DNA of 31,236 nt from a virus. Below the pieces are notes generated by a model. That model saw only the letters and a program-made list of their open reading frames with translations. It did no database searches and was not told where the DNA came from. How positions within the stretch are numbered: position 1 is the stretch's first letter; each line of letters starts with the position of its first letter. The stretch is from IMG/VR virus record IMGVR_UViG_3300009155_000162, positions 1 to 31,236 of that record; one strand, given 5' to 3'. This document shows, one piece after another, positions 3,263 to 30,926 of the stretch. A program made the position numbers and the translations under genes.

Positions 3263-3711
3263 CACCAGCACAACTCCGAGCCCTAATTCATTCCGATGCG
3301 GTTGCCAAGCAAATGGCTGACCGTGGAGACGATCTCGGCTGCGCAAACAGGTGCACTGCGATTGCCACGCCGACGCGTACCGAAACAGTCCTGACCGAGC
3401 GTGGACTGTACGACCGCCTTGGATCTGCGATGGCCGAGTCTATCCTGCAAAAATTGTCGATGTATGACGGCATGTTCGGGCCGATCGTTCATCGCGTGCT
3501 CGGATGGATGAAACCGGCCGAAGGTGGCTTTGACTTTGCCGAGGCTGAGTTCTTAGCTTTAATCGACGAAATCCGCCAAGATGGCATGGCTCTATCGGAT
3601 CCCGAGTACCAAGCCCTGATCAATCTTTCGCTCACAACTTCCCACATCACAGCCTCGGAGGTTTCTGAGGCGTGGTCGGAATACCGACCCGACGGAAAGG
3701 TTCCTAGCTAA
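3259..3711 (+). CDS. hypothetical tail-operon protein
   Basis: A 150-residue, mostly helical protein. Its N-terminus (MTPAQLRALIHSDAVAKQMADRGDDLGCANRCTAIATPT) resembles a recurring phage protein that starts 'MT..ql.al..D..a......GdD.gcA..l' and continues with a segment ending in helices (ESILQKLSMYDGMFGPIVHRVLGWM, AEAEFLALIDEIRQDGMAL). I know of no established function. It overlaps the gpT-like stop (ATGA), and its own stop overlaps the next ATG as TAATG. It is therefore translationally tied to the chaperone on one side and a decoration-like protein on the other. A role in tail or baseplate assembly is inferred from position only. Confidence 0.6.
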   Translation: MTPAQLRALIHSDAVAKQMADRGDDLGCANRCTAIATPTRTETVLTERGLYDRLGSAMAESILQKLSMYDGMFGPIVHRVLGWMKPAEGGFDFAEAEFLALIDEIRQDGMALSDPEYQALINLSLTTSHITASEVSEAWSEYRPDGKVPS

Positions 3712-4145
3712 TGCCCACGATTACTCAACTGAGAGGCACCGCAGACACGCTGCTTAGCACCGAGCTAAACAGCTTATCGAACAATTCCAACGCGGTTCAT
3801 GCAACCAGCGTGACGCTTTCTAGTGCTGGTTACCTAGATGCCGAGGCAGAGCTGCTCGTGACCTTTGGCACCGCACCGACAGCGAACACGCCCATCTACG
3901 TCTGGTTACTACGCGAGATCGACGGAACCAACTTCGAAATGGGCTCGGCGACGGTTACGCCAAACCGCCCACCTGACATCATTTTTACGATCACCAACGT
4001 GACCACCGCTCAGCGAATCATAGTGCCAGTGATCGATATACCACCAGGCCCGATTCGTCCGCTAGTTCGCAATGCAGGCACCGGCCAGGCTTTTGCATCC
4101 ACTGGCAACACATTGCGGCTTCGACCTAGGACATTCCAAAGTTAG
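3711..4145 (+). CDS. hypothetical virion-associated protein (beta-rich)
   Basis: A 144-residue protein with a beta-sandwich look: Thr/Ser/Val-rich strands (AVHATSVTLSSAGYLDAEAELLVTFG), an aromatic strand (TPIYVWLLREIDGTNFEMGS), and a tail of strands (QRIIVPVIDIPPGPIRPLVRNAGTG). The pattern 'P.Y.wLl...DG..fE.Gs' and the closing 'vP.~.iPPgp.r.lvrN.tG' resembles small phage proteins encoded beside fibre genes, thought to be fibre-associated. TAATG overlap with the upstream gene and a 1-base gap to the LamG-like fibre gene (4147) support a shared transcript and related job. Confidence 0.6.
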   Translation: MPTITQLRGTADTLLSTELNSLSNNSNAVHATSVTLSSAGYLDAEAELLVTFGTAPTANTPIYVWLLREIDGTNFEMGSATVTPNRPPDIIFTITNVTTAQRIIVPVIDIPPGPIRPLVRNAGTGQAFASTGNTLRLRPRTFQS

Positions 4146-4146
4146 C

Positions 4147-5337
4147 ATGCTGACATTTCCTAGGGGCGGAAAAGTCGGCCCGGCAATCTTCGATCGACGG
4201 CACAGGCGACTGACGCAGGGGATGGTTGGCTATTGGCCACCTGTGTTGACCGGGCCGACTGGGCTGCAGCTCTTAGACCTGAGCGGGGAAGACAATGCGG
4301 GCGCATTGACGAACATGGATGCGCCGACCGATTGGGTTTCAGATCGTTATGGAAGTGTATTAGATTTCGACGGTATAAACGATCGCGTTGAACTAAGTCG
4401 TCGCGTCTCACTGTCCACGACGTCGCTCACAATTTCCCTGTGGGCTAAACAAAATCCTGGTGGTATCGGCATGCCAATCGGTGATCGCACTTTGACTACC
4501 AGCTATGTTTGGCTGCGAACCGGAAATTACTTGCGTTTCTCCACTACCACTGGCCTCGTCGAGTTTACGTCAGTCACCGACTTTACCGGATGGAACCACC
4601 TTGTTTTAACAGGGGCGGCAATTTCATCGTCCTTGTCGTCTATCACACTTTTTTGGAATGGGATTAGACAAGCACCGATTTCTATGGTTAACGGAACCTT
4701 TGCGCTTAACACCATTGGCGACGGATACGCTTCTCAATCCTTTCCGTTTTCCGGAAGAATTGCGGAGCTAGCGGTTTGGTCAAGACCCATGACAGACGGT
4801 GGCGCTGCCAGCTTGTTTGCAATGCGACCAGGCTTTCTGGGGCGTCCATCTAGGCCAAACTTTTTTCTTTACGAAGCCGCGATCGCTTATTTGCTCGAGG
4901 CATCGACGGCATCTTACTCGCTCTCCGACCAACCGATCCCGCTGCTGTATGGCCGAGTGTTACCAGCGGACACCGGCAGTGTGTTGCTCTCGGGCCAAAC
5001 AACTCCGCTGCTAGTATCGCGAGTGCTCAATGCGGACCAGGGCTCTTATTCCTGCACCGGCACCGATGCCGCGACGCTGCTCGGCAGACTGCTCGATGCA
5101 GGAGCTGCGGCCTACACACTCGACGGCACTCCCGCTGGGTTTATCGCTAGCCGCCGAATCTCTGCGGACTCGGTCGCTTATCTGGCCAGTGGTCTCGATG
5201 CAGGATTCCTGCGCAGTCGAGTCCTAAAGGCTGGGACGGGTCAATACGTTCTGGTCGCTAGTCCCATCAACATCACAACTGGCACCGGTGGTGCTGGTCC
5301 TTACTACTACCTGTTTTTGCTCGGAGGATCCCGTTAA
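4147..5337 (+). CDS. LamG-like tail fibre protein with 22-residue repeats
   Basis: The likely start is ATG 4147, just after the previous stop, giving 396 residues; an earlier in-frame ATG at 4072 would overlap the preceding gene by 25 codons. Residues about 40-210 look like a LamG/concanavalin-type beta sandwich: GSVLDFDGINDRVEL, SLTISLWAKQN, FTGWNHLVLTG, ITLFWNGIRQAPI, and FPFSGRIAELAVWSRPM. These are the conserved pieces of that fold, which often binds sugars. From 4894 the protein carries five 22-residue repeats and a partial sixth, then a Gly-rich end. Together this suggests a surface-binding fibre or receptor-binding subunit. A trimeric fibre shaft made of the repeats is inference. Confidence 0.7.
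   Translation: MLTFPRGGKVGPAIFDRRHRRLTQGMVGYWPPVLTGPTGLQLLDLSGEDNAGALTNMDAPTDWVSDRYGSVLDFDGINDRVELSRRVSLSTTSLTISLWAKQNPGGIGMPIGDRTLTTSYVWLRTGNYLRFSTTTGLVEFTSVTDFTGWNHLVLTGAAISSSLSSITLFWNGIRQAPISMVNGTFALNTIGDGYASQSFPFSGRIAELAVWSRPMTDGGAASLFAMRPGFLGRPSRPNFFLYEAAIAYLLEASTASYSLSDQPIPLLYGRVLPADTGSVLLSGQTTPLLVSRVLNADQGSYSCTGTDAATLLGRLLDAGAAAYTLDGTPAGFIASRRISADSVAYLASGLDAGFLRSRVLKAGTGQYVLVASPINITTGTGGAGPYYYLFLLGGSR
4894..5274 (+). repeat. five 66-bp coding repeats (22 residues) plus a partial sixth
   Basis: Within the LamG-like fibre gene, five consecutive 66-base units end at 5223, followed by a partial unit. Each encodes a variant of 'L.A..G.Y.L.G....LL..RvL'. Units begin LEASTASYSL, LPADTGSVLL, LNADQGSYSC, LDAGAAAYTL and ISADSVAYLA, and the partial unit begins LKAGTGQYVL. 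Protein similarity is clear while DNA identity is modest, so this is an old duplication rather than a recent slip. Such 'Y.l.G' repeats occur in phage fibre shafts. Confidence 0.8.
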
Positions 5338-7028: not shown

Positions 7029-9098
7029 ATGGCATCCAACATCAAAGCCGGTCAAGCCTACGTCGAGATCGCGACCAAGCAAGGGTTGTTCGACAAAGGT
7101 ATGGCCCAAGTCCAAGCATCCATGGCGAGACTCAAAGGTGTCGCCACAACCATGGGCACCGGAATCGCAAAAGGCTTTAACGGTGCCCAAGGTGCCTTGT
7201 CCGGCTTTTCCAAGTCCATGTTGAGCGTCCCTGCTGCAATCGCTGGTTCGGTCGCTGTGACTGGCCTAGTCGCATTGGCCAAGGGTTTTGCTGACGCTGG
7301 GTCCGCCGTCGATGACATGGCCCAGCGGACTGGCATGAGTGCCGAAGCGGTGTCCTCGCTCGGCTACGCGGCCAAGCTTTCTGGCACCGACATCGGCACG
7401 CTGGAAAAAGGTGTTCGCAAGATGCAAATGGGAATCGCGGATGCAGCCGCCGGTGTGCCTGGTGCTGCGGACAAATTCAGCGCTCTGGGCCTGAGTGTAG
7501 ACGAGCTCCAAAAGATGTCTCCCGACGAACAATTCATCGCGATCGCTGACAAGCTGTCATTGATCCAGGACCCAGCCCTCAAGAGTGCTGCGGCCATGGA
7601 GTACTTTGGCAAGGCTGGTGCGGACCTGGTCCCCATGCTCTCCGAGGGAGGCGACGGGATCCGCAAGCTGCAAAGGGACGCAGCCGAGCTCGGGCAAGTC
7701 ATGTCTGGAGAAGACGCAGCCGCTGCGGGCAAGCTGGGGGATGTGTTCGATCGACTCTTTGGCGTGATCGGTGGATTGCAGAATCGAATCGGTGCGGCCC
7801 TCGCCCCGCTCATGATCGACCTGGGCGAAAAGATCATCAGCGTGATCACTACCGTGAGTGATTTTATCTCGCGGAATCAAGAGCTGATCATGACGATCGC
7901 CAAGTGGACTGCGGTCGGAGCTGGCCTGCTCGCAGGCTTGTTCGCACTCGGCGGAGCTGCTGCCGTAGCCTCGGTGGCCATGACCGGCCTAGCTGCGATC
8001 GGTGGAGCTATTGCCACAGTGTTCGGCATGATCGTCGGATTGATCAGTGCCATCGTTTCTCCGCTCGGTCTGGTCATCGTCGGCGTCACCGCAGCTACCG
8101 GAGCGTTCTTGTACTTCTCTGGCGTGGGCGGTGAAATGGTCGGCTATCTGGTCGCCAAGTTCAACGAGCTCAAATCGATTGTGCTGCCGGTGTTCGACGC
8201 CATCAAGACCGCTCTGATGTCCGGCCAATGGCAAGCCGCTGGCCAAGTCGCCATGACTGGCCTGCAATTGGTTTTTCGCGTCGCCACGCGGGACCTGTAT
8301 GCAGGCTGGCTTTCAATGACGACGAAGATCCAAAACGCTTGGACGGATCTGTCCTCGATCGTCTCCCAAGGTGCGGTTTCTTTTGTCGCCAATCTGATCA
8401 ACGTCATGGCTGGAATACCGACCGGGATCCAAAACGGGTTTGGAACTGTCTTCACCTGGTTGGAAGGAACTTTTGACCAGACAGTCAATTTTATCGCGAA
8501 AAAACTGCTCTACCTGTATTCGCTGTTCGACAAGTCAGTCGACTACGAAAAGGCTGCAAAGCAGATGGATACCGAAGCGAACAAGCGAGCCGACAATCGG
8601 CAACAGTCGCTCGACGCTGCCAACGCGAAACGCAACGAGGAGCTCCAGCGTGCTAACCAAGGCCGACTGGGTGTCGCCAATGAAATGAACCGTGGTATCC
8701 AGTCCCAGGCCGATGCAACCAAGCAAGGTCGAGACGACCGGAACAAAGAACTGTTGACTGGATTCGATTCTCAGATCTCGCAATTGAGAAAAGATCTCGA
8801 TGATCAGGCAAGGGCCATCCGAGAGACTGCCGACGAGCAAGCCAAAGGTGCTGAGACCTCAAAATTCGCACAGCAAAAAGAGGCACCGGCCAAACCCAAG
8901 ATTCCCTCGGTAGAGCAAGTCAAGGCGACCACTGCGACACAGACCTCGGGGACATTTTCCGGCTTTGCTGCTGGCATGATGGGTGGAACCACATCCGCAC
9001 TAGATCGCATGGCCGATCAGTCTGCCAAGTCGAACGAGTTGCTTACGCAGATCGCCAAAAACACTGGCGAAAATCAACCATTGGTATTTGGGAGCTAA
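7029..9098 (+). CDS. tail tape measure protein
   Basis: At 689 residues this is one of the longest structural genes in the window. The N-terminal part (about 1-270) is Ala/Gly-rich and helical, with the 'AQRTGMSAEAVSSLGYAAKLSG' and 'YFGKAGADLVPMLSEGGDGI' patterns standard in phage tape measures. Residues about 290-364 form a long hydrophobic stretch with several likely membrane helices. The C-terminal third is charged coiled coil. The protein sets tail length; by the usual rule of about 0.15 nm per residue the tail would be near 100 nm (inference). It starts one base after the preceding stop. Confidence 0.93.
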   Translation: MASNIKAGQAYVEIATKQGLFDKGMAQVQASMARLKGVATTMGTGIAKGFNGAQGALSGFSKSMLSVPAAIAGSVAVTGLVALAKGFADAGSAVDDMAQRTGMSAEAVSSLGYAAKLSGTDIGTLEKGVRKMQMGIADAAAGVPGAADKFSALGLSVDELQKMSPDEQFIAIADKLSLIQDPALKSAAAMEYFGKAGADLVPMLSEGGDGIRKLQRDAAELGQVMSGEDAAAAGKLGDVFDRLFGVIGGLQNRIGAALAPLMIDLGEKIISVITTVSDFISRNQELIMTIAKWTAVGAGLLAGLFALGGAAAVASVAMTGLAAIGGAIATVFGMIVGLISAIVSPLGLVIVGVTAATGAFLYFSGVGGEMVGYLVAKFNELKSIVLPVFDAIKTALMSGQWQAAGQVAMTGLQLVFRVATRDLYAGWLSMTTKIQNAWTDLSSIVSQGAVSFVANLINVMAGIPTGIQNGFGTVFTWLEGTFDQTVNFIAKKLLYLYSLFDKSVDYEKAAKQMDTEANKRADNRQQSLDAANAKRNEELQRANQGRLGVANEMNRGIQSQADATKQGRDDRNKELLTGFDSQISQLRKDLDDQARAIRETADEQAKGAETSKFAQQKEAPAKPKIPSVEQVKATTATQTSGTFSGFAAGMMGGTTSALDRMADQSAKSNELLTQIAKNTGENQPLVFGS

Positions 9099-9104
9099 GC
9101 AACA

Positions 9105-9941
9105 ATGAGCGCGTGGACGTACTTGCCCCAAACTGTCGACGAGTCCGCTGAGTCCAGAGAAATGGACTTTGACCTCAAGGGAGGCCAACGGACCCAGACT
9201 CGGATTGCGATTGTTACTGGGTACACAGAGGCCGAAGACGCGGCCCAGGCTGCTGTCGACTTGCCGAGCACGCCATTTCCGCTAACGATCGCAGCATCGG
9301 GCGGAAAGCCTGCGATGGCGATGATTGCAGCCAAAGCCAAGCCTCTGACTCCCAATGCATGGGAGATCACATTCTCCTATGAGTCCCGAGCCTATGACGG
9401 AACCGATCCTTTAACCTGGACTTTTTCCGGCACGACGCTGGGCAAGACGCAGCTAGTAACCCAGTCATTTGCGACAACCATCTACGGCGGATCGGCAGTC
9501 AATTATGGGTCGGCAATCAATGTCGACCAAAACGGGGTCAAGGGTGTCGAGATCGGGATTCCAGGATTGGAATTTCAAATCGAAAAGACATTGGCCAAGG
9601 GAGTGTTGACATTGCCTTATGTCATGACGCTGGTCAATCTGACATTTAAAACCAACGTCGCAGCGTTTCGGAATTTCGCTGCTGGTGAACTGCTTTTCCT
9701 AGGTGCTGAGTTCCGAAACGGATCGACCGGCGAGGTGACAGTCACATTTAAATTTAGCGCATCTCCAAATCGAACCGGCCTATCATTTGGTACAATCACC
9801 GGAGTTGCCAAGAAGGGGCACGAGTACCTCTGGGTTGATTATGAAGCTTGGGAGTCGGGTGGCTATGTCATTCGCCGACCTCGCGGAGTCTATGTAGAAA
9901 GAGTGTACGAAGAGGGCGATTTTACAGCACTCGGAATTTAA
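9105..9941 (+). CDS. hypothetical distal tail / baseplate protein
   Basis: A 278-residue protein following the tape measure by 6 bases, the place of distal tail or baseplate hub genes. It is beta-rich: ITFSYESRAYDGTDPLTWTFSGTTLGKTQ, VKGVEIGIPGLEFQIEKTL, LLFLGAEFRNGSTGEVTVTFKFSASPNRTGL, and a final ITGVAKKGHEYLWVDYEAWE. The 'FLGA......g...vtfkF..SpN' and 'KkGhEYlWv.y' phrases recur in a family of phage proteins of about 270-290 residues located downstream of tape measures in planctomycete and proteobacterial prophages. No function is established. It probably forms part of the tail tip. Confidence 0.6.
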   Translation: MSAWTYLPQTVDESAESREMDFDLKGGQRTQTRIAIVTGYTEAEDAAQAAVDLPSTPFPLTIAASGGKPAMAMIAAKAKPLTPNAWEITFSYESRAYDGTDPLTWTFSGTTLGKTQLVTQSFATTIYGGSAVNYGSAINVDQNGVKGVEIGIPGLEFQIEKTLAKGVLTLPYVMTLVNLTFKTNVAAFRNFAAGELLFLGAEFRNGSTGEVTVTFKFSASPNRTGLSFGTITGVAKKGHEYLWVDYEAWESGGYVIRRPRGVYVERVYEEGDFTALGI

Positions 9942-9950
9942 CACCCCATC

Positions 9951-10673
9951 ATGCCATTCCCAGGCGACAAATTTAAACCATCGGCGAGCCGTGAAAGAGA
10001 GATCACGAAGCTCATCGAGTCCGCGCGTGGTGATGTCGCATCGTTCGGTGTTAAGGCACTCGACGGACTCGCACCTGGTCATGTCATTGCCAAGAATGAG
10101 ACCGGGTCCGATCTAGCAATCGGCAAGGCTGCACTCATCCCAACCGGAAGCTCGGGCGGTGTATCAAGCCAAGAGCAAATCCCACGCAAAGATCCTAGCT
10201 ATCAAAAGGGCTATTACACCCTCAAGGCTCTCACGCCATTGATCAGCGGTGCCAATCCCTACTTTGAATCGCTCGCTGTGACTGTTGAGGCGATTCCAAA
10301 TAACAAATTTGGTCGTGTCGCGATTGCAGGCCTCGCTATCGCCGCATACCCAGCCAAACATGGTTTTATCACTCCCGCATCGGGCGACGTATCATGGGGC
10401 TTTTTTGGCCTTGCCCGAGTCGTGACATGCATGCCCGCAACGGGATCATCCGATTTTTCGGTTTGGGACTTGTCTTGTCGAGCCATGCAGGCCGTCTACA
10501 CACTGACGACAAACTGGGCATCTGGATCGGCCACCGCCACGATCGCTGGAGCGTCGACGCAGTTGTTTGACTCTAACGGCATCGCAAGCTGGCAGGTGAA
10601 CGGCGACAAGGGTATGGCTGTCTATACAAGTGGCAACTGGGTTGTGATCACACCTTGGTGCGTGGGGAACTAG
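9951..10673 (+). CDS. hypothetical tail-tip protein
   Basis: A 240-residue protein without a recognised domain. The first 40 residues are charged and helical (SASREREITKLIESARGD). The rest is beta-rich and hydrophobic with an 'APGHVIAKNETGSDLAIGKAALI' motif that looks like the start of a barrel, a Ser/Gly linker around residue 65, and Trp/Thr-rich strands near the end (WVVITPW). It follows the previous stop by 9 bases and precedes the Cys-rich gene by 6. It is probably a tail-tip or adhesin component, judged by location only. Confidence 0.55.
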   Translation: MPFPGDKFKPSASREREITKLIESARGDVASFGVKALDGLAPGHVIAKNETGSDLAIGKAALIPTGSSGGVSSQEQIPRKDPSYQKGYYTLKALTPLISGANPYFESLAVTVEAIPNNKFGRVAIAGLAIAAYPAKHGFITPASGDVSWGFFGLARVVTCMPATGSSDFSVWDLSCRAMQAVYTLTTNWASGSATATIAGASTQLFDSNGIASWQVNGDKGMAVYTSGNWVVITPWCVGN

Positions 10674-10679
10674 CCAGTT

Positions 10680-11786
10680 ATGCCGACAGTAATCGACGCG
10701 ATGACTTGCACCTGGTGCGATGCCGAGGGCAGTCAAAAAAAGTGCTACAAGTGTCGCGACGCATGTCGGCATCCTAAGCTATCGGACCGGTCGTGGAGCT
10801 TCAAGGTCACGCCAAGCACCGGCCTGCTGCCGTATGTGATTTGCGATGCCAACCAGATTTGCTCACCCAATTTCACGCGAGTCAATAGCTGCTGCTCGAG
10901 CATCGCTGCCGGTCCGAGAGCTGCTCCGAACGATCGCAGCGAAACCAATGGTGTCTACAAGTGGCGACGTTACAGCCGCACTTACTCCTCGACCGTCAGT
11001 CGAACACGAGTCTGCACCAACGCCAGTTCTGGCCTGTGCTATAAAATCGGCCCGACCAACGTTTGCAGTTTAACCGTTGAATACGCTCGGGCCTGCGTGC
11101 TCGGGTGGCGTATGATCGCTGGCATCACCCAAGCGAAACTCTACATAAGTCGCACCCAGCCTGGCTACGGATGCGACGAGCCCAATCAATGCCGATACCG
11201 GCTCGCACTGGTGATTGAAGGGGAGATCGGTCTGACCTGGGCCACGCAGATCAGCGCTGGCCAGAACATCACAGTCAATTCGTCGGGCTCATTCTGCGGG
11301 GAGTCTTATCCGTGCTCCGACGGATCAGGGCCCAGTGGAGCTTGGCCGGTCGGATCTCCACCGGCATTCAACGCCGCCGGACTGTCGGTCACAATGCATC
11401 AGTTTCGCCAAGTCTTTCGGCGATCGGTTGACACGCTTGAGTTTCCAATGACCTTTGGGCCGACCGGAGCAGTCGGCCTGAGCTGCGGCCCCAAGTGCGC
11501 TGCGGGCATCAGTGCCTTTGGTCCCACTTTTGGATCACCGCCAGCGTTCACTTGCGATCCTCCCGACGATCTCGCGCCGAACACTGGTTTCGACACTGGA
11601 TCTGTCGATGCATGCACATCCATTTCGTGTGCCGATCAACCGACGTATTGTCCAAGCTATGCCAACATCATTGACCACACCAGCTTTACAAACACGTTGA
11701 CCGGATCGTCCGACTCGGGAGTCGTCACGCCTGGATCCGCTCCGGATCCGACGTTGCCAACCGAATACCTAGTGGAGCTCCAATGA
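10680..11786 (+). CDS. cysteine-rich tail protein, 23 Cys
   Basis: A 368-residue protein containing 23 cysteines, far more than any other gene here. Clusters include CTWC, KCYKCRDAC near the N-terminus, then NSCCSS, RVCTNASSGLC, YGCDEPNQC, FCGESYPC, LSCGPKC and CTSISCADQPTYC. The first cluster (CTWCDAE...KCYKCRDAC) resembles a zinc ribbon. The spread of the others, together with Gly/Pro/Ser loops and Trp/Tyr strands, resembles a disulfide-stabilised extracellular protein. It lies in the tail operon and its stop overlaps the start of an Erv/ALR-like gene (ATGA at 11783). That suggests an adhesin or tail-tip protein whose disulfides are made by the neighbour (inference). Confidence 0.65.
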   Translation: MPTVIDAMTCTWCDAEGSQKKCYKCRDACRHPKLSDRSWSFKVTPSTGLLPYVICDANQICSPNFTRVNSCCSSIAAGPRAAPNDRSETNGVYKWRRYSRTYSSTVSRTRVCTNASSGLCYKIGPTNVCSLTVEYARACVLGWRMIAGITQAKLYISRTQPGYGCDEPNQCRYRLALVIEGEIGLTWATQISAGQNITVNSSGSFCGESYPCSDGSGPSGAWPVGSPPAFNAAGLSVTMHQFRQVFRRSVDTLEFPMTFGPTGAVGLSCGPKCAAGISAFGPTFGSPPAFTCDPPDDLAPNTGFDTGSVDACTSISCADQPTYCPSYANIIDHTSFTNTLTGSSDSGVVTPGSAPDPTLPTEYLVELQ

Positions 11787-12973
11787 TCGATCTACTAGGG
11801 CATCCGATTCATCCTGGACCGTTCACTACGCAGACCATCGACGGTTTCACCGGCACTGTCCACGAGTTTGGCGAGGATCGATACTTCGAGCCCGAGCAAC
11901 GGGAAACAGGTTGGCCAGCACTGCATCTGTACTCGTTTCGGAACGCCAATACATGGGACCCAGCCAAAGCCCGAGCTTGGGTGATCGAGTGGCTCCGATG
12001 GAGCTTGCCTCCGAGCTGCGATTGTGCGGTCCACTGGCATGCAACCGTGGAAATGTTTCCAATGACCGACGCTGTGTTCGCGTCCCCAGACTCATTTTTC
12101 GACTGGTCGGTCAATTGTCACAACCATGTCAACTCTCGACTCGATGTCGATGAGTCCCACCCACAAGTTCCACTTGCCCGCGCCCGCGAGATCTGGTCGA
12201 GGATTGCCGCAGCCGGGCAAGTGGCTTGGTTTTGTCCGGTCAATGATACCATCTCGGGCGGTCGGCGTCTTGTCATCACTGTTGCGACTGGAAAGGCTCG
12301 GGAGTGGCTGCGATACACCGAGGGCCCGATGCGAGCCTATGCAGCCGACTGCAAAGCCGATTTCGTCGTCCTGCAGAATACCACTCAAGGCTGGTGGGGA
12401 CTGGAAAAGTTTCGCGTCCATCAATTCGCCAAAGCCTACGATCAGACGCTTTACCTCGACGCCGACGTCCTGGTCACTCGTCTAGCAAAAGACTTGTTCT
12501 CTGGCTATGAGCCGCAGGAGCTTTGCTCGACGGACGGTCTCGACAATTATGTCGCGATCTACAACGAGCTCGACGATTTGCAGTCATCGACGTGGGTCGC
12601 TGGCTGCTGGGACAAGGTCGATCAATGCATCGGGCCCACGCTCAAGAACAAACACTGGGGCCAGTCGTACAATTCTGGCGTAGTGTTTTGCGATCGCGAG
12701 GGAGCAAGCGTCTGGACGCCTCCCAAGCTGCCGATCCCGACGTTCCACGTCGCCGAGCAGATCGTTGTCGGGATGAACCTAATGCGACACAGGCCGCTGC
12801 TGCATCCGTTGCGAGTCAGTCGCAATTTGCAAGTTTGGAACCCGCATTTCACGCTTCGACTGTTTGGTGCCGAGTTCGTTCACTTGTCCGGCTTGGACAA
12901 GAAAACCGAAGCAATCAAAACCATGATCGAGCGACTTGAGGCCATCAAGAATCCAATCTATACAAGGAAGTGA
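11783..12973 (+). CDS. fusion of Erv1/ALR-like sulfhydryl oxidase domain and glycosyltransferase-like domain
   Basis: A 396-residue, two-domain protein. Residues about 40-125 carry the Erv1/ALR landmarks: GWPALHLYSF (W44, H48), then PSCDCAVHW (C79, C81, H84), then FFDWSV-CHNHVNSRL with W108 and the FAD-binding HNxVN box (H113, N114, V116, N117). The active-site cysteines read CxC rather than CxxC, which is odd. Residues about 160-370 look like a GT-A glycosyltransferase (GT8-like): a V-I-T-V strand, 'WWGLEKFRVHQFAKAYDQTLYLDADVLVT' region with a D-A-D metal motif at 226-228, and NSGVVFCD. The gene is coupled to the Cys-rich tail gene by ATGA. It may oxidise, and possibly glycosylate, tail proteins in the infected cell. 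Confidence 0.6.
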   Translation: MIDLLGHPIHPGPFTTQTIDGFTGTVHEFGEDRYFEPEQRETGWPALHLYSFRNANTWDPAKARAWVIEWLRWSLPPSCDCAVHWHATVEMFPMTDAVFASPDSFFDWSVNCHNHVNSRLDVDESHPQVPLARAREIWSRIAAAGQVAWFCPVNDTISGGRRLVITVATGKAREWLRYTEGPMRAYAADCKADFVVLQNTTQGWWGLEKFRVHQFAKAYDQTLYLDADVLVTRLAKDLFSGYEPQELCSTDGLDNYVAIYNELDDLQSSTWVAGCWDKVDQCIGPTLKNKHWGQSYNSGVVFCDREGASVWTPPKLPIPTFHVAEQIVVGMNLMRHRPLLHPLRVSRNLQVWNPHFTLRLFGAEFVHLSGLDKKTEAIKTMIERLEAIKNPIYTRK

Positions 12974-13519: not shown

Positions 13520-13725
13520 ATGCCGAGATGCGACACCTGATGCCGCACACGTCGAAGCCTGATGGAAGATACCGTCGGCAACCTCGGACGACCGCGCCGT
13601 CATGCCCATGCTGTGGAGCTCGGTACAAGGCCGCTTCCACTCGAGAGCGGATCACTTGGTATTACCGCACCTGTAAATGTGCTCCCGCACATGGCATCTC
13701 ACGCCAAAGGCCAAGCCGATACTGA
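13498..13725 (+). CDS. small zinc-ribbon protein before terminase
   Basis: A 75-residue basic protein with a four-cysteine zinc-ribbon signature, CPCCGARYKAA then YYRTCKC, spacing roughly C-x-C-C...C-x-C. A strong AGGAGG ribosome site lies about 10 bases before ATG 13498, inside the end of the preceding gene, and its stop overlaps the terminase start as TGATG. Zinc ribbons of this size in phages include Com-like translational regulators and late transcription activators. Its position at the terminase start might instead point to a packaging helper, since no small terminase was recognised elsewhere. Function is unknown. Confidence 0.6.
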   Translation: MVVFAKLNAEMRHLMPHTSKPDGRYRRQPRTTAPSCPCCGARYKAASTRERITWYYRTCKCAPAHGISRQRPSRY

Positions 13726-15983
13726 TGACCAAGAAGCGACCGCCAACAGCAGCTCCCGCGGATCCCGACGACGACTACAACGAGTCTGGCGCGGAGCGTC
13801 CCAAGGACTCCTATGCCAAGCACCGCAAACGCCAGGCCTCGAAAGCCAAAGAGGAATCGACCGAGGCCCGAGACATCGGCCCGATTCCTGCGATCGTCAA
13901 TCCTAAGCGACGAGAGTCCTGTCGGCTAAACCTTAAAAAGTATTTGCTCACGTACTTTAAAGAGGCTTTTCCGCTGCCGTTCAGCGAGGACCATGAGCGG
14001 ATCCTAAAAGACATCGAAGAGCGAGCGATCAACGGCGGTCTGAAATGCATCGCCATGCCTCGGGGATCTGGCAAGACGACGATTCTTTTGCGAGCCATGC
14101 TCTGGGTGCTGTCCTATGGCCATCAGCGATTCGGAGTCCTCGTCGAGGCCGACGAGGGAGCCGCCGAGGAATCGCTCGATGCGATCAAAATCGAGTGGGA
14201 AACCAACTCGCTGCTTCTCGAGGACTTCCCGGAGATCGCTTTCCCGATCCGTTGCCTAGAAGGAATCACCCAGCGAGGCAACGCGCAGACCACTCAGGGC
14301 AAAAGGACGCTCATCGGTTGGCGACGCAAGGAACTGATTTTCCCGACCATTGAGGGATCGCAGGCATCTGGAGCAATCATTCGCTGCACTGGGATCCTCG
14401 GTAGAGTCCGCGGGATGCAAAAGGTACTCGCCGATGGCAAGACGATCCGGCCTGGTTTCGTGCTCGTCAATGACCCGCAGACCGACACTTCGGCATTGTC
14501 AGACCCGGAATGTGCCAAGCGGGAAAAGGTGATCGGTGGGGCAATACTGGGCCTTGGTGGACCAGGGAAACGGATCGCAGGATTTGCTGCGGTAACCGTG
14601 ATCCGCGAAGGCGACGCAGCCGACCGGATGCTCAATACCAAGCTTATGCCAAAATGGCACGGCGATCGATGCAGGCTTGTCTATGAGTGGCCGACCAATC
14701 GGGAATTGTGGATGAAGTATTTCGACATCCGCGCCGAAGAAATCGCCGAAGGAAACGATGAACACCCAAAGGCCAACAAGTTCTATCGAGCGAACCGCGC
14801 CGCGATGGACGCAGGGTCTAAAGTGGGATGGGCACATCGCAAGTTTCCCCATGAGATCTCGGCGATTCAGCACGCCGAGAACCTCCGGTTTGACAATCCC
14901 GACACGTTTGACGCCGAGTACCAAAACGAGCCTAAGAAATCGATTGTGGCCGTCGATGGAATCCGCTGCCTTACGTCCGATGAATTCTGCTTGCGAATCC
15001 TGCCAACTCACCGCCGCGGTGAGATCCCTGACTGGGTTGAGCACATTACCCTGGGAGTGGACGTCCAGGGATCCTCGCTCTGGTGGACAGTCGCCGGTGT
15101 CGGAGCCGACTTCTCCGGCCTGGTGGTCGACTATGGAATCTGGCCCGAGCCCGGCATTGACTACGTTACCCTCGCCGACATTGATCGGACCATCATACGA
15201 GCCACCGGAATCCGATCCTCGACCGAGTCGCTTTTGGTCGCGCTGGGCAAGCTCCGAGACGAGCGACTCGCTGTCACGTACACTCGAGACGACGGGACGC
15301 AGCTGCGGCCCGAGATCATGGTGGTCGATGCAGGGTTTCAGAGTGAAGTCGTCTATCGATTCAGCCAGCAGCATCAGCATGTGGTTCCGAGCCATGGCAA
15401 GGGCGTCACCGCCAGGCAACGCCCCTGGAACCAAGAAAAGAAGAAAGCCGGGGAGCGCATGGGATTCGGTTGGCGCATGCCACCGACCCGAGGGACCAGG
15501 GCCCCGAGGTACTGCCTCGTAGACACCAACAGTTGGAAGACGGCCATGATGGACCGATGGACCACCGATGCCGGTGAGCCTGGTGCTTGGTGGCTCTACC
15601 GAGCCGCCCCGCTGCGTCACCGCATGGTCGCGGACAATCTGTCGGCAGAATACCCCACGAAGACCCAGGGACAAGGCAGAGAGCTTTTCGAGTGGGGATG
15701 CAGGCCAGGACGGGACAATCACTTCCTGGACTCTACGATCCTCGCCGCGGTGGGTGCATCGATACTGGGGGTGAAGGTCCCCGGCGAGTCAGATCGAGTG
15801 ATACGCCGACGCAAGATCAGCATGAGCGACCGATCCGGACAGGATCGACCCGAGCAGGATCAATCCCGCGAGCCTTCCCCCGTCGAGCAGCGCGTCGAAG
15901 CCGTCGAGAAGATCGCCAAGCGGCCCAACGATGGCAAGATGACCTTAGCCGAGCTGCGGGCCCTCAGGCGGAAGAGTGGGTGA
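13725..15983 (+). CDS. terminase large subunit (GpA-like)
   Basis: From ATG 13725 (overlapping the zinc-ribbon stop as TGATG; an earlier ATG at 13677 is in frame but less likely) the product is 752 residues. A Walker A loop MPRGSGKTT is near residue 111, followed by an ATPase core. The nuclease half starts at ITLGVDVQGS (D near residue 446), and the RNase H-like region continues through 'EIMVVDAGFQSEVVYRF' and 'DNHFLDSTILAAVGA'. The 'GVDVQ' strand and closing 'NHFLD' are typical of GpA-type large terminases, which package DNA into the prohead. The C-terminus is Arg/Gln/Glu-rich, and its last 11 codons lie in a 40-bp direct repeat. Confidence 0.9.
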   Translation: MTKKRPPTAAPADPDDDYNESGAERPKDSYAKHRKRQASKAKEESTEARDIGPIPAIVNPKRRESCRLNLKKYLLTYFKEAFPLPFSEDHERILKDIEERAINGGLKCIAMPRGSGKTTILLRAMLWVLSYGHQRFGVLVEADEGAAEESLDAIKIEWETNSLLLEDFPEIAFPIRCLEGITQRGNAQTTQGKRTLIGWRRKELIFPTIEGSQASGAIIRCTGILGRVRGMQKVLADGKTIRPGFVLVNDPQTDTSALSDPECAKREKVIGGAILGLGGPGKRIAGFAAVTVIREGDAADRMLNTKLMPKWHGDRCRLVYEWPTNRELWMKYFDIRAEEIAEGNDEHPKANKFYRANRAAMDAGSKVGWAHRKFPHEISAIQHAENLRFDNPDTFDAEYQNEPKKSIVAVDGIRCLTSDEFCLRILPTHRRGEIPDWVEHITLGVDVQGSSLWWTVAGVGADFSGLVVDYGIWPEPGIDYVTLADIDRTIIRATGIRSSTESLLVALGKLRDERLAVTYTRDDGTQLRPEIMVVDAGFQSEVVYRFSQQHQHVVPSHGKGVTARQRPWNQEKKKAGERMGFGWRMPPTRGTRAPRYCLVDTNSWKTAMMDRWTTDAGEPGAWWLYRAAPLRHRMVADNLSAEYPTKTQGQGRELFEWGCRPGRDNHFLDSTILAAVGASILGVKVPGESDRVIRRRKISMSDRSGQDRPEQDQSREPSPVEQRVEAVEKIAKRPNDGKMTLAELRALRRKSG

Positions 15984-18515: not shown

Positions 18516-18601
18516 AGCGAGGGCCCTCGGTAGTCGTCATCGCCTAACGCGATGATGACACAGGAAAACACTACAACGCAAACAAAAATGATCAGGTCCA
18601 T
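18512..18601 (-). CDS. 29-residue membrane peptide
   Basis: A very short gene, ATG at 18601 to TGA at 18512-18514. The product is a single hydrophobic helix (MDLIIFVCVVVFSCVIIALG) with a charged tail of nine residues. Its ATG overlaps the stop of the DUF4406/DUF6378 gene and its own stop overlaps the next ATG, each as ATGA. Double coupling in a compact operon argues that it is translated. Small phage membrane peptides can affect the host membrane, exclusion or lysis timing, but nothing in the sequence decides the role. Confidence 0.6.
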   Translation of the reverse strand: MDLIIFVCVVVFSCVIIALGDDDYRGPSL

Positions 18602-20040
18602 CAGTTGCACCGACTCCCGCAGCTCGCATACCCAGCGATGTCGACCCAGTTGTCCCGCTTGCGCTGATGCGTCTCCCGGGAGGTCTTGAGCAAGATCATC
18701 GCCAGTGCAACGTCTCGGGGTTCAAATGTCACCCCGTCTTTAAGCTTGGAAAAGAACAATGCCGACCACATGCCAGCGGTCCTGCGGAAGTCCTGATCAG
18801 GAGGCCCGTATTGAGCTTGACGGCTGCCCCGCGTGATCCGAGATGCTTCGGCCAGGATGTCTTGGTCGTCGTCGTCGTCGTCGTCTTGCTCGGCGAGACC
18901 GATCCGTTCTACTTTTGGCATGTGATGTTCGCTTAGCTGTACGGCAAGGCTGAGAAGGCTCGTCCAGTAACACGCAAACGTGAGTCGATTATCGTCGTCG
19001 ATGTTCAGGTGTCGCACCCGCTTGTTGAGCCACATGGCCAGGGTAAGCTCGGCCACGGCTCCATTGCTGTTCTCCCAGCCTGGAAGCAGCACGAGCTCGT
19101 CACACCGCAGGACTGCGTCGAGGCACCGACGCACCGTCTTTGCAAAGTCCATGGTTTTGGGGAATGTGCAAGCGTCAGGTTGTGCATGCGATGGATTCGC
19201 ATACGGATCAAAACCATCGTGCTTGCGATCTTCTTCCGCTGGGCTGATGACTTCGTTGCCGGCCTCACGCAGCGCTTTGGCGACTCGATCAAAAAGCGGG
19301 TAGTTAAACCAAGCAATCCCCCGCATCGGGCCAGCGACGTACAGGACTCGCTTGCGTTGAATCGGTTCGGCAATCGGCTCCGCGTCTGTATCGTACGCAT
19401 TAGGTACTGTGTATCCAATCGTGATCTTCTCGTTCGCTTCGCAACGCTCCAGCTCTCCGATGTCGGGCGAACTGTTCGGAGTTTCCAAAGCGTTTGAACT
19501 ATCCGGGATTTTCGGAGAGTTGGATGCAGTTGTTGAGGATTCCTTGACAACTGGTCTGGATCCCGGTGTCGCGATGTACGGCACTAGATTTGGGTTGTCC
19601 TGAGGGTGCATCGTTGCGCTGAGGACGTGTTCCTGTTTCCATCTCCCAAGTGTTTTGTCGTCGAAGTGGTGGACCGGTTGTAAGAAATCACTGGTTGTCT
19701 TTAGCACCGCCTCGGCAGCTGCAAGCGATTCGTCGGCTCGATAACATTGGAGCAATTGCTTGCCGTAAAAATCGCTAGTAAAAATCTTGTCTATCACTAC
19801 CTCGCAGAGATACTTTGATTTGTCTGTGCTCGGCTCGCGAAACACTCTCACCTTTTCGCCGACCCGAAAGTTCATGCGTCGGATGCGTGTCTCGCCATAA
19901 CAGACCCAGGCCCGAACCAGCACTGGTACCCACTGCTTGCTCTGTGCACTCCATTCCCAGTCTCCAGGTGCTGTGATCTCCTGAATCCTCAAAGCTTGCC
20001 AACCGCACGGGATTGCGATAGGTGTTGTACTGCTGCTCAT
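18601..20040 (-). CDS. three-part protein: unknown N-terminal domain, DUF4406, DUF6378
   Basis: A 479-residue protein. Residues about 5-110 form an uncharacterised beta-rich domain (VPVLVRAWVCYGE, VGEKVRVFREPSTDKSKYLCEVVIDKIF). Residues 150-228 are a Ser/Thr/Pro linker. Residues 231-345 match DUF4406, a nucleoside 2-deoxyribosyltransferase-like fold: VLYVAGPMRG, FDRVAKALREAGNEVISPAEED, CDELVLLPGWENSNGAVAEL, with the family Glu in 'GA.AE'. Residues 395-478 match DUF6378 (ILAEASRITRGSRQAQYGPPDQDF, FEPRDVALAMILLKTSRE, NWVDIAGYA). Between them lies a run of seven Asp encoded by (GTC)7. DUF4406 and DUF6378 genes are often separate neighbours in phages. An AGGAGG site precedes the ATG. Confidence 0.75.
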   Translation of the reverse strand: MSSSTTPIAIPCGWQALRIQEITAPGDWEWSAQSKQWVPVLVRAWVCYGETRIRRMNFRVGEKVRVFREPSTDKSKYLCEVVIDKIFTSDFYGKQLLQCYRADESLAAAEAVLKTTSDFLQPVHHFDDKTLGRWKQEHVLSATMHPQDNPNLVPYIATPGSRPVVKESSTTASNSPKIPDSSNALETPNSSPDIGELERCEANEKITIGYTVPNAYDTDAEPIAEPIQRKRVLYVAGPMRGIAWFNYPLFDRVAKALREAGNEVISPAEEDRKHDGFDPYANPSHAQPDACTFPKTMDFAKTVRRCLDAVLRCDELVLLPGWENSNGAVAELTLAMWLNKRVRHLNIDDDNRLTFACYWTSLLSLAVQLSEHHMPKVERIGLAEQDDDDDDDQDILAEASRITRGSRQAQYGPPDQDFRRTAGMWSALFFSKLKDGVTFEPRDVALAMILLKTSRETHQRKRDNWVDIAGYASCGSRCN

Positions 20041-28634: not shown

Positions 28635-29468
28635 ATGTTTGCAGGAGTGATTTTTTTAGTGGTTATGATGGTTGGCAGTGTTGCCGGCGACGAATGGGAC
28701 GCCAAACATCTTGGGTTCTCAGGCATCCCGATCCAAGGCAATGACAAGCTGCTGAAGGGGCTTGGGTTTGCCAAGCTGCCAGTCAAACGAGGAATCTTGG
28801 TCGCTGTGGTCAATCCAGACACTCCGACTGCTGCTGGTGGATTGCTTCCGCTTGCGATCGTTAGTGCGATCAATCGCAAGCCGGTTGGATCGATAGATGA
28901 TGCATCCGAGATCCTCGCAGGACTGGAGGTCGGCGACGATGTGCTCCTGGCCGGCCACACACTCAGAAACAACGTGTGGAAGTCCGGGACCGTGAAGACC
29001 AAGGTGATGACACGCCGCCAAGTGCTAGAGTCGACGATGGAGCGAACTGTGGATGCGATCAACGGAATTATTCGATACGATCACAAATTCGATCCCGAGG
29101 GACAGTTGAAACGGGTCAAGCTCTACGCTCTGGCCCAAACCGGCCGCGCACCGGAGCTCCGAGCCGAGACACTTTGGGTCGACAAGGAATGGTTGTTTCT
29201 CCAATCGCTGACGCTGGCCAATGGAACTGACCGAGAGACTGCCGACGTCAAGCCGTTCACCGGCCAAGAAAAGATCAAGACTGGATACATCGTCGAGCAA
29301 AAGACCTGCGAGGTGTCGCCAGCGTTTGGAGCTCTGCTCATTCGACCAGATACCACAGTTCGCTTTACAGGCACCAAGACGTTTTACGACCACGATCCAA
29401 CGATCTCGGAGATCTGGATCAACAAAGACGTTTTGGATTTTTATCGCATGATGTCGGCCAAGCCTTGA
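28635..29468 (+). CDS. secreted PDZ-domain protein
   Basis: A 277-residue protein with an N-terminal signal peptide (MFAGVIFLVVMMVGSVAGDE) and a PDZ domain at about 42-110 (LGFAKLPVKRGILVAVVNPDTPTAAGGL, then VSAINRKPVGSIDDASEILAGLEVGDDVLLA). The C-terminal 150 residues are a beta-rich domain (FDPEGQLKRVKLYALAQTG, ETLWVDKEWLFLQSLTL, KTFYDHDPTISEIWINKDVLDFY) without a recognised family. There is no protease triad, so it is not an HtrA enzyme; PDZ domains bind peptide ends. Sited between regulatory genes with its own operators and terminator, it looks like a lysogenic conversion gene acting outside the cytoplasm (inference). Confidence 0.65.
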   Translation: MFAGVIFLVVMMVGSVAGDEWDAKHLGFSGIPIQGNDKLLKGLGFAKLPVKRGILVAVVNPDTPTAAGGLLPLAIVSAINRKPVGSIDDASEILAGLEVGDDVLLAGHTLRNNVWKSGTVKTKVMTRRQVLESTMERTVDAINGIIRYDHKFDPEGQLKRVKLYALAQTGRAPELRAETLWVDKEWLFLQSLTLANGTDRETADVKPFTGQEKIKTGYIVEQKTCEVSPAFGALLIRPDTTVRFTGTKTFYDHDPTISEIWINKDVLDFYRMMSAKP

Positions 29469-29783: not shown

Positions 29784-30926
29784 ATGAGCTCGATCTACAA
29801 ACACAAGCACCGAGGCTGGTACTGTTGCGTTACCTTGCCGTCTGGCCGACGATGCCAGATCTACTTGGGCAAGGTGACTAAGGCCGGTGCTGAAACCGTC
29901 CGACGTAACGTCGAGCGTCTGATGGCCAGCAACACTGTAGGGATCGAGCCGGACACGCAGATTCAAACATGGATTTCTCTGTGTGATGCCAAATTCAGAG
30001 ACAAGCTCCAGGCCGCTGGATTGCTCGCCAAATGGAAGCCGCCTAAGGCCTCACCGCTGCTCTCGGTCGTCTGGGATGCCTATGTTGCGAAGCGTGCCGA
30101 CTTTGCCCCCAGTTCCATCAAAGGCTTTCGGACTGCCCGCAAACACGCCTTAGATCATCTCAAAGACCGCTTGATCAGCGAGATCACGATTGCCGACGCT
30201 AAACACTTTGCCCTGCGAATGGAATCGGTGCATTCCAGTGCCCACGCAAAAAAGATCGTCGAACGGACCAAGCAAGTCCTCCAGGACGCAGTCGATTCTC
30301 GACTTTTGGCGACCAATCCATTCGCGAACGTTAATCTGCGAGCCAAGATTGATCGGACTCGTGGTTATCATCTACCCGAGGCCGACGCAATGAAGGTGCT
30401 CGATAAGCTTGGATCGATTCAGGCCAAGGCCGCTTTTGTGCTCGCAAGGTTTGCAGGCCTGCGGATCCCACACGAGCTGCTGCCCCTGACTTGGGCTCAC
30501 ATAGATTTCGAAAAGCATCGCATCACGATCCCCACGGGGACCAAGACAGGCCAGCGAGTGATTCCTATGGTGCCGATCGTCTACGAGCACATGCTCCAGC
30601 TTGCCGAGGCTGCTGACTCCTCCCCTTGGGTGTTGAGCCGAGCCAGGTCTAGTGCAAGAACAACGCTCCGAAAATGGCTCGAATCGGCGATCTTACTGGC
30701 TGGCCTCAAGCAATGGCCAAAGCTGTGGCACAATCTCAGAGCCTCATGTCGCACCGACATGGAAGAACAGTTTGCATCTCATGTGTGTGATGCTTGGTTA
30801 GGACATTCTAAGAGAGTCGCGAAAGATCATTATCTCATGGTAACAGACGATCACTGGACCAAGGCGATCAGCAAACCGAGTGATGTACGGCGCGCGGTCA
30901 AAGTACGGCGCGACGTACGGCGCTGA
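29784..30926 (+). CDS. tyrosine recombinase / phage integrase
   Basis: A 380-residue integrase with all catalytic residues visible: R227 (FAGLRI), K254 (GTKTGQ), H316 and R319 (HNLRAS), H341 (LGHS) and Y350 (DHYLMV). The N-terminal 60 residues form an arm-binding type domain (SIYKHKHRGWYCCVTLPSGRRCQIYLGK), followed by a core-binding SAM-like domain (ASPLLSVVWDAYVAKRADFAPSSIKGFRTARKHALDHL). The C-terminus is Arg-rich (VRRAVKVRRDVRR), and it is encoded by repeated GTACGGCGC units. The HNLRAS box and 'WLGHS..VA..HYL' order is common in planctomycete integrases. It begins straight after the Xis-like stop. Confidence 0.93.
   Translation: MSSIYKHKHRGWYCCVTLPSGRRCQIYLGKVTKAGAETVRRNVERLMASNTVGIEPDTQIQTWISLCDAKFRDKLQAAGLLAKWKPPKASPLLSVVWDAYVAKRADFAPSSIKGFRTARKHALDHLKDRLISEITIADAKHFALRMESVHSSAHAKKIVERTKQVLQDAVDSRLLATNPFANVNLRAKIDRTRGYHLPEADAMKVLDKLGSIQAKAAFVLARFAGLRIPHELLPLTWAHIDFEKHRITIPTGTKTGQRVIPMVPIVYEHMLQLAEAADSSPWVLSRARSSARTTLRKWLESAILLAGLKQWPKLWHNLRASCRTDMEEQFASHVCDAWLGHSKRVAKDHYLMVTDDHWTKAISKPSDVRRAVKVRRDVRR
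30885..30923 (+). repeat. GTACGGCGC repeats at the integrase 3' end
   Basis: Three exact copies of GTACGGCGC at 30885-30893, 30903-30911 and 30915-30923 lie in the last codons of the integrase, and a fourth exact copy is at 31077-31085 outside it (with a partial GTACGC at 31089). They give the Arg-rich tail its VRR repeats. Short repeats like this near an integrase gene are typical of arm-type integrase or Xis binding sites. Confidence 0.6.

Follow-up and report, generated by a model that had tools for sequence, protein, structure and literature searches.

Why should a tailed phage carry a gene that joins an Erv-like sulfhydryl oxidase domain to a glycosyltransferase, directly behind a gene for a protein with 23 cysteines? 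The locus lies in positions 1 to 31,236 of IMG/VR virus record IMGVR_UViG_3300009155_000162, and this whole stretch of 31,236 nucleotides is called the window here. A sequence-only reading of the window had given the coordinates and lengths of the two genes, the cysteine count, the overlap of the two as ATGA and the residue landmarks, and all of these proved correct when the sequence was read again. The genes concerned are as follows.

7029 to 9098, plus strand: tape measure protein (PHROG tape measure, E 4e-46; tail-module context)
9105 to 9941, plus strand: tail-module protein, kept in planctomycete prophages without the cassette
9951 to 10673, plus strand: tail-module protein immediately 5' of the cassette
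10680 to 11786, plus strand: cysteine-rich virion-module protein, 368 aa, 23 Cys, the proposed substrate
11783 to 11786, plus strand: ATGA overlap, the stop of the cysteine-rich gene and the start of the fusion gene
11783 to 12973, plus strand: Erv-glycosyltransferase fusion protein, 396 aa
12977 to 13519: small gene between the fusion gene and the terminase
13677 to 15983, plus strand: terminase large subunit, a context gene
29784 to 30926: integrase

The window is identical to contig 3300027963_000140 across 21,188 bases. Its terminase shares 39-45% identity with the closest Planctomycetota prophage terminases, and some match to it occurs in 47 of 294 sampled Planctomycetota genomes. By this sequence kinship the host is likely to be a planctomycete, and the integrase suggests a temperate phage. 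Three other ORFs of the window deserve mention: one in the structural module (4072-5337) has a ConA-like (Laminin_G_3) domain (E 6e-10), a 479-aa ORF on the minus strand (18601-20040) fuses DUF4406 to DUF6378, and an ORF directly before the integrase (28635-29468), possibly a cargo gene, has a weak PDZ-domain match.

The oxidase-like half of the fusion protein contains the following features.

11909 to 12196, plus strand: Erv1/ALR-like domain, residues 43-138 (Pfam Evr1_Alr, PDB profile, helices)
12017 to 12025, plus strand: C79-x-C81, where Erv enzymes have their active-site disulfide (no exception among the aligned members of any clade)
12119 to 12133, plus strand: HNxVN motif, residues 113-117, the FAD-binding signature of Erv (conserved across clades)

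The landmarks in the window protein are W44, H48 (in HLYSF), C79-D-C81, H84, W108 and H113-N-H-V-N117. The resemblance to Erv1/ALR noticed earlier in this half is borne out by Pfam and by profile comparison with the PDB. Pfam Evr1_Alr matches the window protein with E 5.7e-5 at 23.8 bits, which is below the cut-off of 27.6 bits; it matches 12 of 12 clade-1 relatives (best E 1.6e-8), and for two fusions from distant clades the score lies above that threshold (29.5 and 28.3 bits). When 19 phage Erv domains from several clades were combined into a profile (A12), it gave 17 matches in the PDB at E<=0.1, every one an Erv, ALR or QSOX protein, with pB119L of African swine fever virus (ASFV) as the best (E 5.4e-10). 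Because the profile matches nothing outside this family in the PDB, chance resemblance to Erv was rejected, and on profile evidence the N-terminal half of the fusion is a true Erv1/ALR domain. At about 30% identity, W44, H48, C79, C81, P93, F106, H113, N114, A134 and W138 are invariant over the clades, and V116 and N117 nearly so.

The AlphaFold2 model of the fusion protein (mean pLDDT 77.6) places helices at residues 43-53, 60-73, 81-91, 102-120 and 131-144 of this half. The third helix begins at C81, the helix of residues 102-120 bears HNxVN, and the order of helices is that expected of the family, in a model where the bundle is seen only together with the glycosyltransferase half. Residues 76-79 of the CxC loop have pLDDT below 50. 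Among the 50 Foldseek matches listed for the fusion model, which the glycosyltransferase half dominates, the Erv half does not appear. The predicted helices thus follow the pattern of an Erv domain, and the profile secures the family assignment independently.

The replacement of CxxC by CxC, already noticed in the window protein, holds in every member of every clade, and we therefore name the domain an Erv-like variant rather than a canonical CxxC enzyme. In alignments, C81 takes the place of the second cysteine of canonical CxxC, the one beside the flavin, and C79 is one residue closer. A search across the clades for a second conserved cysteine pair that could serve as a shuttle found none. 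We know of no Erv enzyme demonstrated to work with CxC at the flavin. Woycechowsky and Raines reportedly found CxC dithiols to be competent and rather oxidising; therefore, CxC does not exclude activity. In some cellular Erv enzymes, CxC occurs as the shuttle pair, separate from the pair at the flavin (PMC3509050). Among viral Erv enzymes, many possess the FAD-proximal disulfide only and no shuttle pair (PMC3509050, PMC11654684). As judged from its sequence, the Erv-like domain would bind FAD and may act as an oxidase through CxC.

The second half of the fusion protein contains the following features.

12260 to 12952, plus strand: GT8-like GT-A glycosyltransferase domain, residues 160-390 (Glyco_transf_8, Foldseek)
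12458 to 12466, plus strand: DxD (D226-A-D228), metal/nucleotide-sugar motif (Asp residues invariant)
12671 to 12682, plus strand: NSGV motif of GT8-type enzymes, residues 297-300
12881 to 12904, plus strand: H367...K374, the C-terminal metal His and Lys region of GT8

This half had been taken for a GT-A glycosyltransferase with a DAD motif, and its assignment as a GT8-like GT-A glycosyltransferase is confirmed by the predicted fold and by the invariant DxD together with the NSGV and His/Lys motifs. The nearest folds in Foldseek are those of the PBCV-1 capsid glycosyltransferase (2p6w, 2p72, 2p73; E ~1e-6), followed by STIV A197, LgtC, glycogenin, the catalytic domains of UGGT, and many GT8 and GT34 proteins of phages and giant viruses. 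NSGV is kept in every full-length member except one with NTGV, and H367 is present in every member that reaches this region. In Pfam Glyco_transf_8, the fusion of L166 scores above the cut-off (26.0 versus 24.3 bits) and the other members below it. Because the GT-A fold matches and D226/D228, NSGV and H367 are kept, this half is probably an active, metal-dependent nucleotide-sugar enzyme.

The protein encoded upstream contains 23 cysteines in 368 aa (6.3%). Among 280 ORFs of at least 200 aa from 33 loci (median 1.5% cysteine, 99th percentile 7.1%), the cysteine-rich partners rank at the top. Across 23 non-redundant homologues with pairwise identities down to 39%, 19 of the 23 cysteines are invariant, compared with 58 of 345 other residues (Fisher p 8e-11). 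In the AlphaFold2 model (pLDDT 77) the protein is all-beta, its N-terminus is predicted poorly, and the fold found no match in the PDB. Partners in clade 2 have 23-25 cysteines (15 invariant), those in clade 3 have 24-30, and that of L166 has 20. In clade 1 the N-terminus carries CxxC...CxxC, and the clade-2 partners contain CCCC; these cysteines could bind metal instead. The partners form four families with no detectable similarity between them (by hhalign where compared, with shallow profiles), which argues that the enzyme would be matched to the cysteine-richness of its partner rather than to one fold. A ConA/lectin reading of the clade-3 partner, made by looking at its sequence, was unsupported by Pfam and PDB searches.

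The same arrangement was found well beyond the window. The fusion occurs in 50 other IMG/VR contigs (29 of clade 1, 11 of clade 2 and 10 more distant; several are near-identical), so that it is not an isolated oddity of one phage. In 50 of 50 readable contigs, two of which show the upstream gene in part only, the gene immediately upstream is cysteine-rich, with 20-30 cysteines when complete; the absence of the pair from related phages, named earlier as an outcome that would speak against the proposal, was thus not observed. The overlap or near-abutment of the two genes is retained in the relatives.

When proteins are clustered by BLASTP, about six distinct gene neighbourhoods are seen around the cassette. 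L074 and L071 are 77% identical in DNA along 2004 bp that take in both cassette genes, starting about 30 bases inside the cysteine-rich gene and stopping about 35 bases short of the fusion gene's end; apart from short stretches more than 1.6 kb downstream, the rest of their tail genes are unrelated. In L157 and L161, a block of 2293 bp with these same borders is 88% identical in DNA, and no other stretch is shared within ~12.9 kb. Since the shared block corresponds to the two genes in both pairs, they travel as a cassette. In L157, the genes preceding the cassette include one for a head-morphogenesis protein. The cysteine-rich protein may be a tail adhesin displayed on the virion, and given this neighbourhood "virion surface protein" is a safer term than "tail protein". 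Directly before the head-morphogenesis gene, L157 (1-2058) encodes a 685-aa protein with an N-terminal 2'-5' RNA ligase/Acb1 (anti-CBASS) domain.

Pirellula-type prophages provide a contrast. L045 and L163 are related to the window in the tape measure (32% identity, E ~1e-74) and in the tail gene that follows it (39-40% identity), and they retain the glycosyltransferase domain at 35-36%, joined there to a second putative glycosyltransferase (Mannosyl_trans3 in L045). They are without the Erv domain, and the slot of the cysteine-rich protein is occupied by a collagen-like protein in L045 and a Ser-Gly-repeat protein in L163. The Erv domain thus follows the cysteine-rich protein, and the glycosyltransferase follows the slot. 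L045 also carries a 183-aa ORF with 11 cysteines, so the contrast is strong, not absolute. The L163 protein (3469-4692) is 407 aa long, consists mostly of Ser-Gly repeats, and is a likely target of glycosylation. Fusions of a Mannosyl_trans3-like domain to this GT8-like domain occur in a set of Pirellula-type prophages or viruses (L045:8720-10714, L046, L160, L163, L168, L175, L180), and at most of these loci the preceding ORF of 183-203 aa has a CGC...MN motif (NCGCHSTKSRMNEMG).

Taken with the genomic pattern, these predictions lead us to a reading that we hold with some confidence: the two genes would form a mobile maturation cassette, in which a bifunctional cytoplasmic enzyme oxidises and glycosylates a virion protein. 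Neither protein has an evident signal peptide as read from the sequence, and both should therefore be cytoplasmic. Translational overlap would supply the cysteine-rich protein and the enzyme together. The Erv/ALR-type domain would bind FAD with the CxC disulfide beside the flavin, and CxC would take electrons from the thiols of the cysteine-rich virion protein encoded by the upstream cistron. Passage of these electrons to oxygen would form disulfides despite the reducing cytoplasm, and the GT8-like domain, with a nucleotide-sugar and a DxD-bound metal, would glycosylate the cysteine-rich protein or its slot neighbour. That the cysteine-rich protein is the substrate of the enzyme, and that it is itself glycosylated, we infer; the case for a viral oxidase that would act on a virion protein rests on the linkage of the genes and the exchange of the cassette. 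There is a precedent in large DNA viruses of eukaryotes, which make disulfides in reducing compartments by means of Erv enzymes (PMC3509050, PMC11654684). The wider proposition, that tailed phages have a dedicated, horizontally exchanged system for oxidative folding and glycosylation in the host cytoplasm, with an unprecedented CxC Erv site and a partner of 20-30 cysteines, seems to us evenly poised.

The loss of CxxC in every member and the absence of shuttle cysteines would suit a redox-dead Erv fold, perhaps without FAD, that serves as a recognition module for the cysteine-rich client and leaves catalysis to the glycosyltransferase half. Such an arrangement would recall UGGT, in which thioredoxin-like sensor domains are coupled to a GT-A domain and whose catalytic domains turn up in the Foldseek matches to the glycosyltransferase half; moreover, this half is retained where the Erv half is missing. 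We nevertheless regard a dead module as unlikely, as drift would be expected in it, whereas both cysteines and HNxVN are invariant or nearly so at ~30% identity and the Erv domain is found only where the neighbour is a cysteine-rich protein. The cysteines of the partner might also bind a metal or cluster, or accept sugar by S-glycosylation, with the Erv domain setting the thiol state for this purpose. The CxxC...CxxC of the clade-1 N-terminus and the CCCC of clade 2 fit that idea, as does the sublancin operon of prophage SPbeta, where the S-glycosyltransferase SunS is paired with the thiol-disulfide oxidoreductase BdbB (PMC6391423). It is made quite improbable by the distribution of the cysteines, since most of the at least 21 conserved ones lie scattered over a beta-rich protein and form no ribbon-like clusters, and by the glycosyltransferase without Erv, whose Ser-Gly-repeat or collagen-like neighbour points to hydroxyl, not thiol, acceptors.

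In other planctomycete prophages whose terminases are related, the slot holds unrelated genes, and it is conceivable that the two genes are mere neighbours in a variable virion-gene position, with the enzyme acting on some other phage or host protein. Strict pairing in 50 contigs with four cysteine-rich families, and two cassette exchanges bordered at the two genes, leave very little room for this explanation.

The maturation cassette that we favour has several partial parallels. In CyDisCo, engineered Erv1p and PDI make disulfides in the cytoplasm of E. coli. This system is similar in that an Erv enzyme forms disulfides in a bacterial cytoplasm; in contrast, it is engineered and requires a disulfide isomerase, whereas the phage cassette is natural, and no disulfide isomerase was recognised among the window ORFs scanned. 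The Erv proteins of eukaryotic viruses (ASFV pB119L, 3gwl; mimivirus R596; poxvirus E10R) are likewise single virus-encoded Erv domains with W..H and HNxVN, have one FAD-proximal cysteine pair and no conserved shuttle pair, and are linked to virion proteins. The phage enzyme differs from them in having CxC instead of CxxC, in its fusion to a glycosyltransferase, in its occurrence in tailed phages and in its gene pairing with a cysteine-rich virion protein. The glycosyltransferase half shares the GT-A fold, DxD, NSGV and the C-terminal His with LgtC, glycogenin and the PBCV-1 capsid glycosyltransferase (2p6w), the last of these being a virus-encoded enzyme as well, with a virion protein as its substrate; unlike these GT8-type enzymes, it is fused to Erv and is only weakly similar in sequence (mostly below the Glyco_transf_8 cut-off). 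The closest operon logic is that of the sublancin operon of prophage SPbeta (sunA, sunT, bdbA, sunS, bdbB), which is phage-carried and provides both disulfides and glycosylation for one cistron partner (PMC6391423). In SPbeta, however, the thiol-disulfide oxidoreductases and the S-glycosyltransferase are separate proteins, and they act on a secreted bacteriocin instead of a virion protein.

A search of 50,697 annotated phage records gave no match to the window fusion, the window cysteine-rich protein or the fusions of two other clades. PHROGs has no Erv family, and only a family of unknown function matches (6 of 18 members). Evr1_Alr scored above its cut-off in none of 294 Planctomycetota genomes and none of 399 genomes of the phylum of G005; 14 control genomes likewise gave none, so absence of the domain from the host is not proven. 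A search of 392 Planctomycetota genomes did not find the fusion, and two of them gave matches of glycosyltransferase type only. A full-text search of the open-access literature found no phage Erv enzyme, and published accounts assign viral Erv oxidases to large DNA viruses of eukaryotes and to baculo-like viruses (PMC11654684, PMC10598087). That viruses encode Erv enzymes acting on virion proteins is already known; we found no precedent for the CxC site, the fusion to a glycosyltransferase, the occurrence in phages or a putative substrate that moves with the enzyme. If our reading is true, prokaryotic viruses would here have their first counterpart to the Erv systems that large DNA viruses of eukaryotes possess. 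It would show that phages too make disulfide-rich virion proteins within a reducing cytoplasm, and would bear on the origin of viral Erv genes. The enzyme would also offer a natural one-gene tool for disulfide-bonded proteins in the bacterial cytoplasm. Owing to the strict pairing, the question of the substrate is directly testable by co-expression.

Some fusion genes vary in other ways. The distant fusions (L156, L157, L161, L162, L165, L166, L167, L178) have an extra N-terminal CxxC...CxC segment, for example CPHCDKACSNDIRPYVCTC, a possible zinc ribbon or redox shuttle pair. The start of a clade-1 fusion gene in L127 (6640-6856) has an in-frame TAG after about 30 codons, which marks a pseudogene or a sequencing error. 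In a contig of a Lysobacteraceae MAG (L048:117-2636), a GT8-like domain is fused to a different CGC-containing N-terminal segment (VECGCGDRQTWLN), and this gene adjoins a 479-aa ORF with 21 cysteines.
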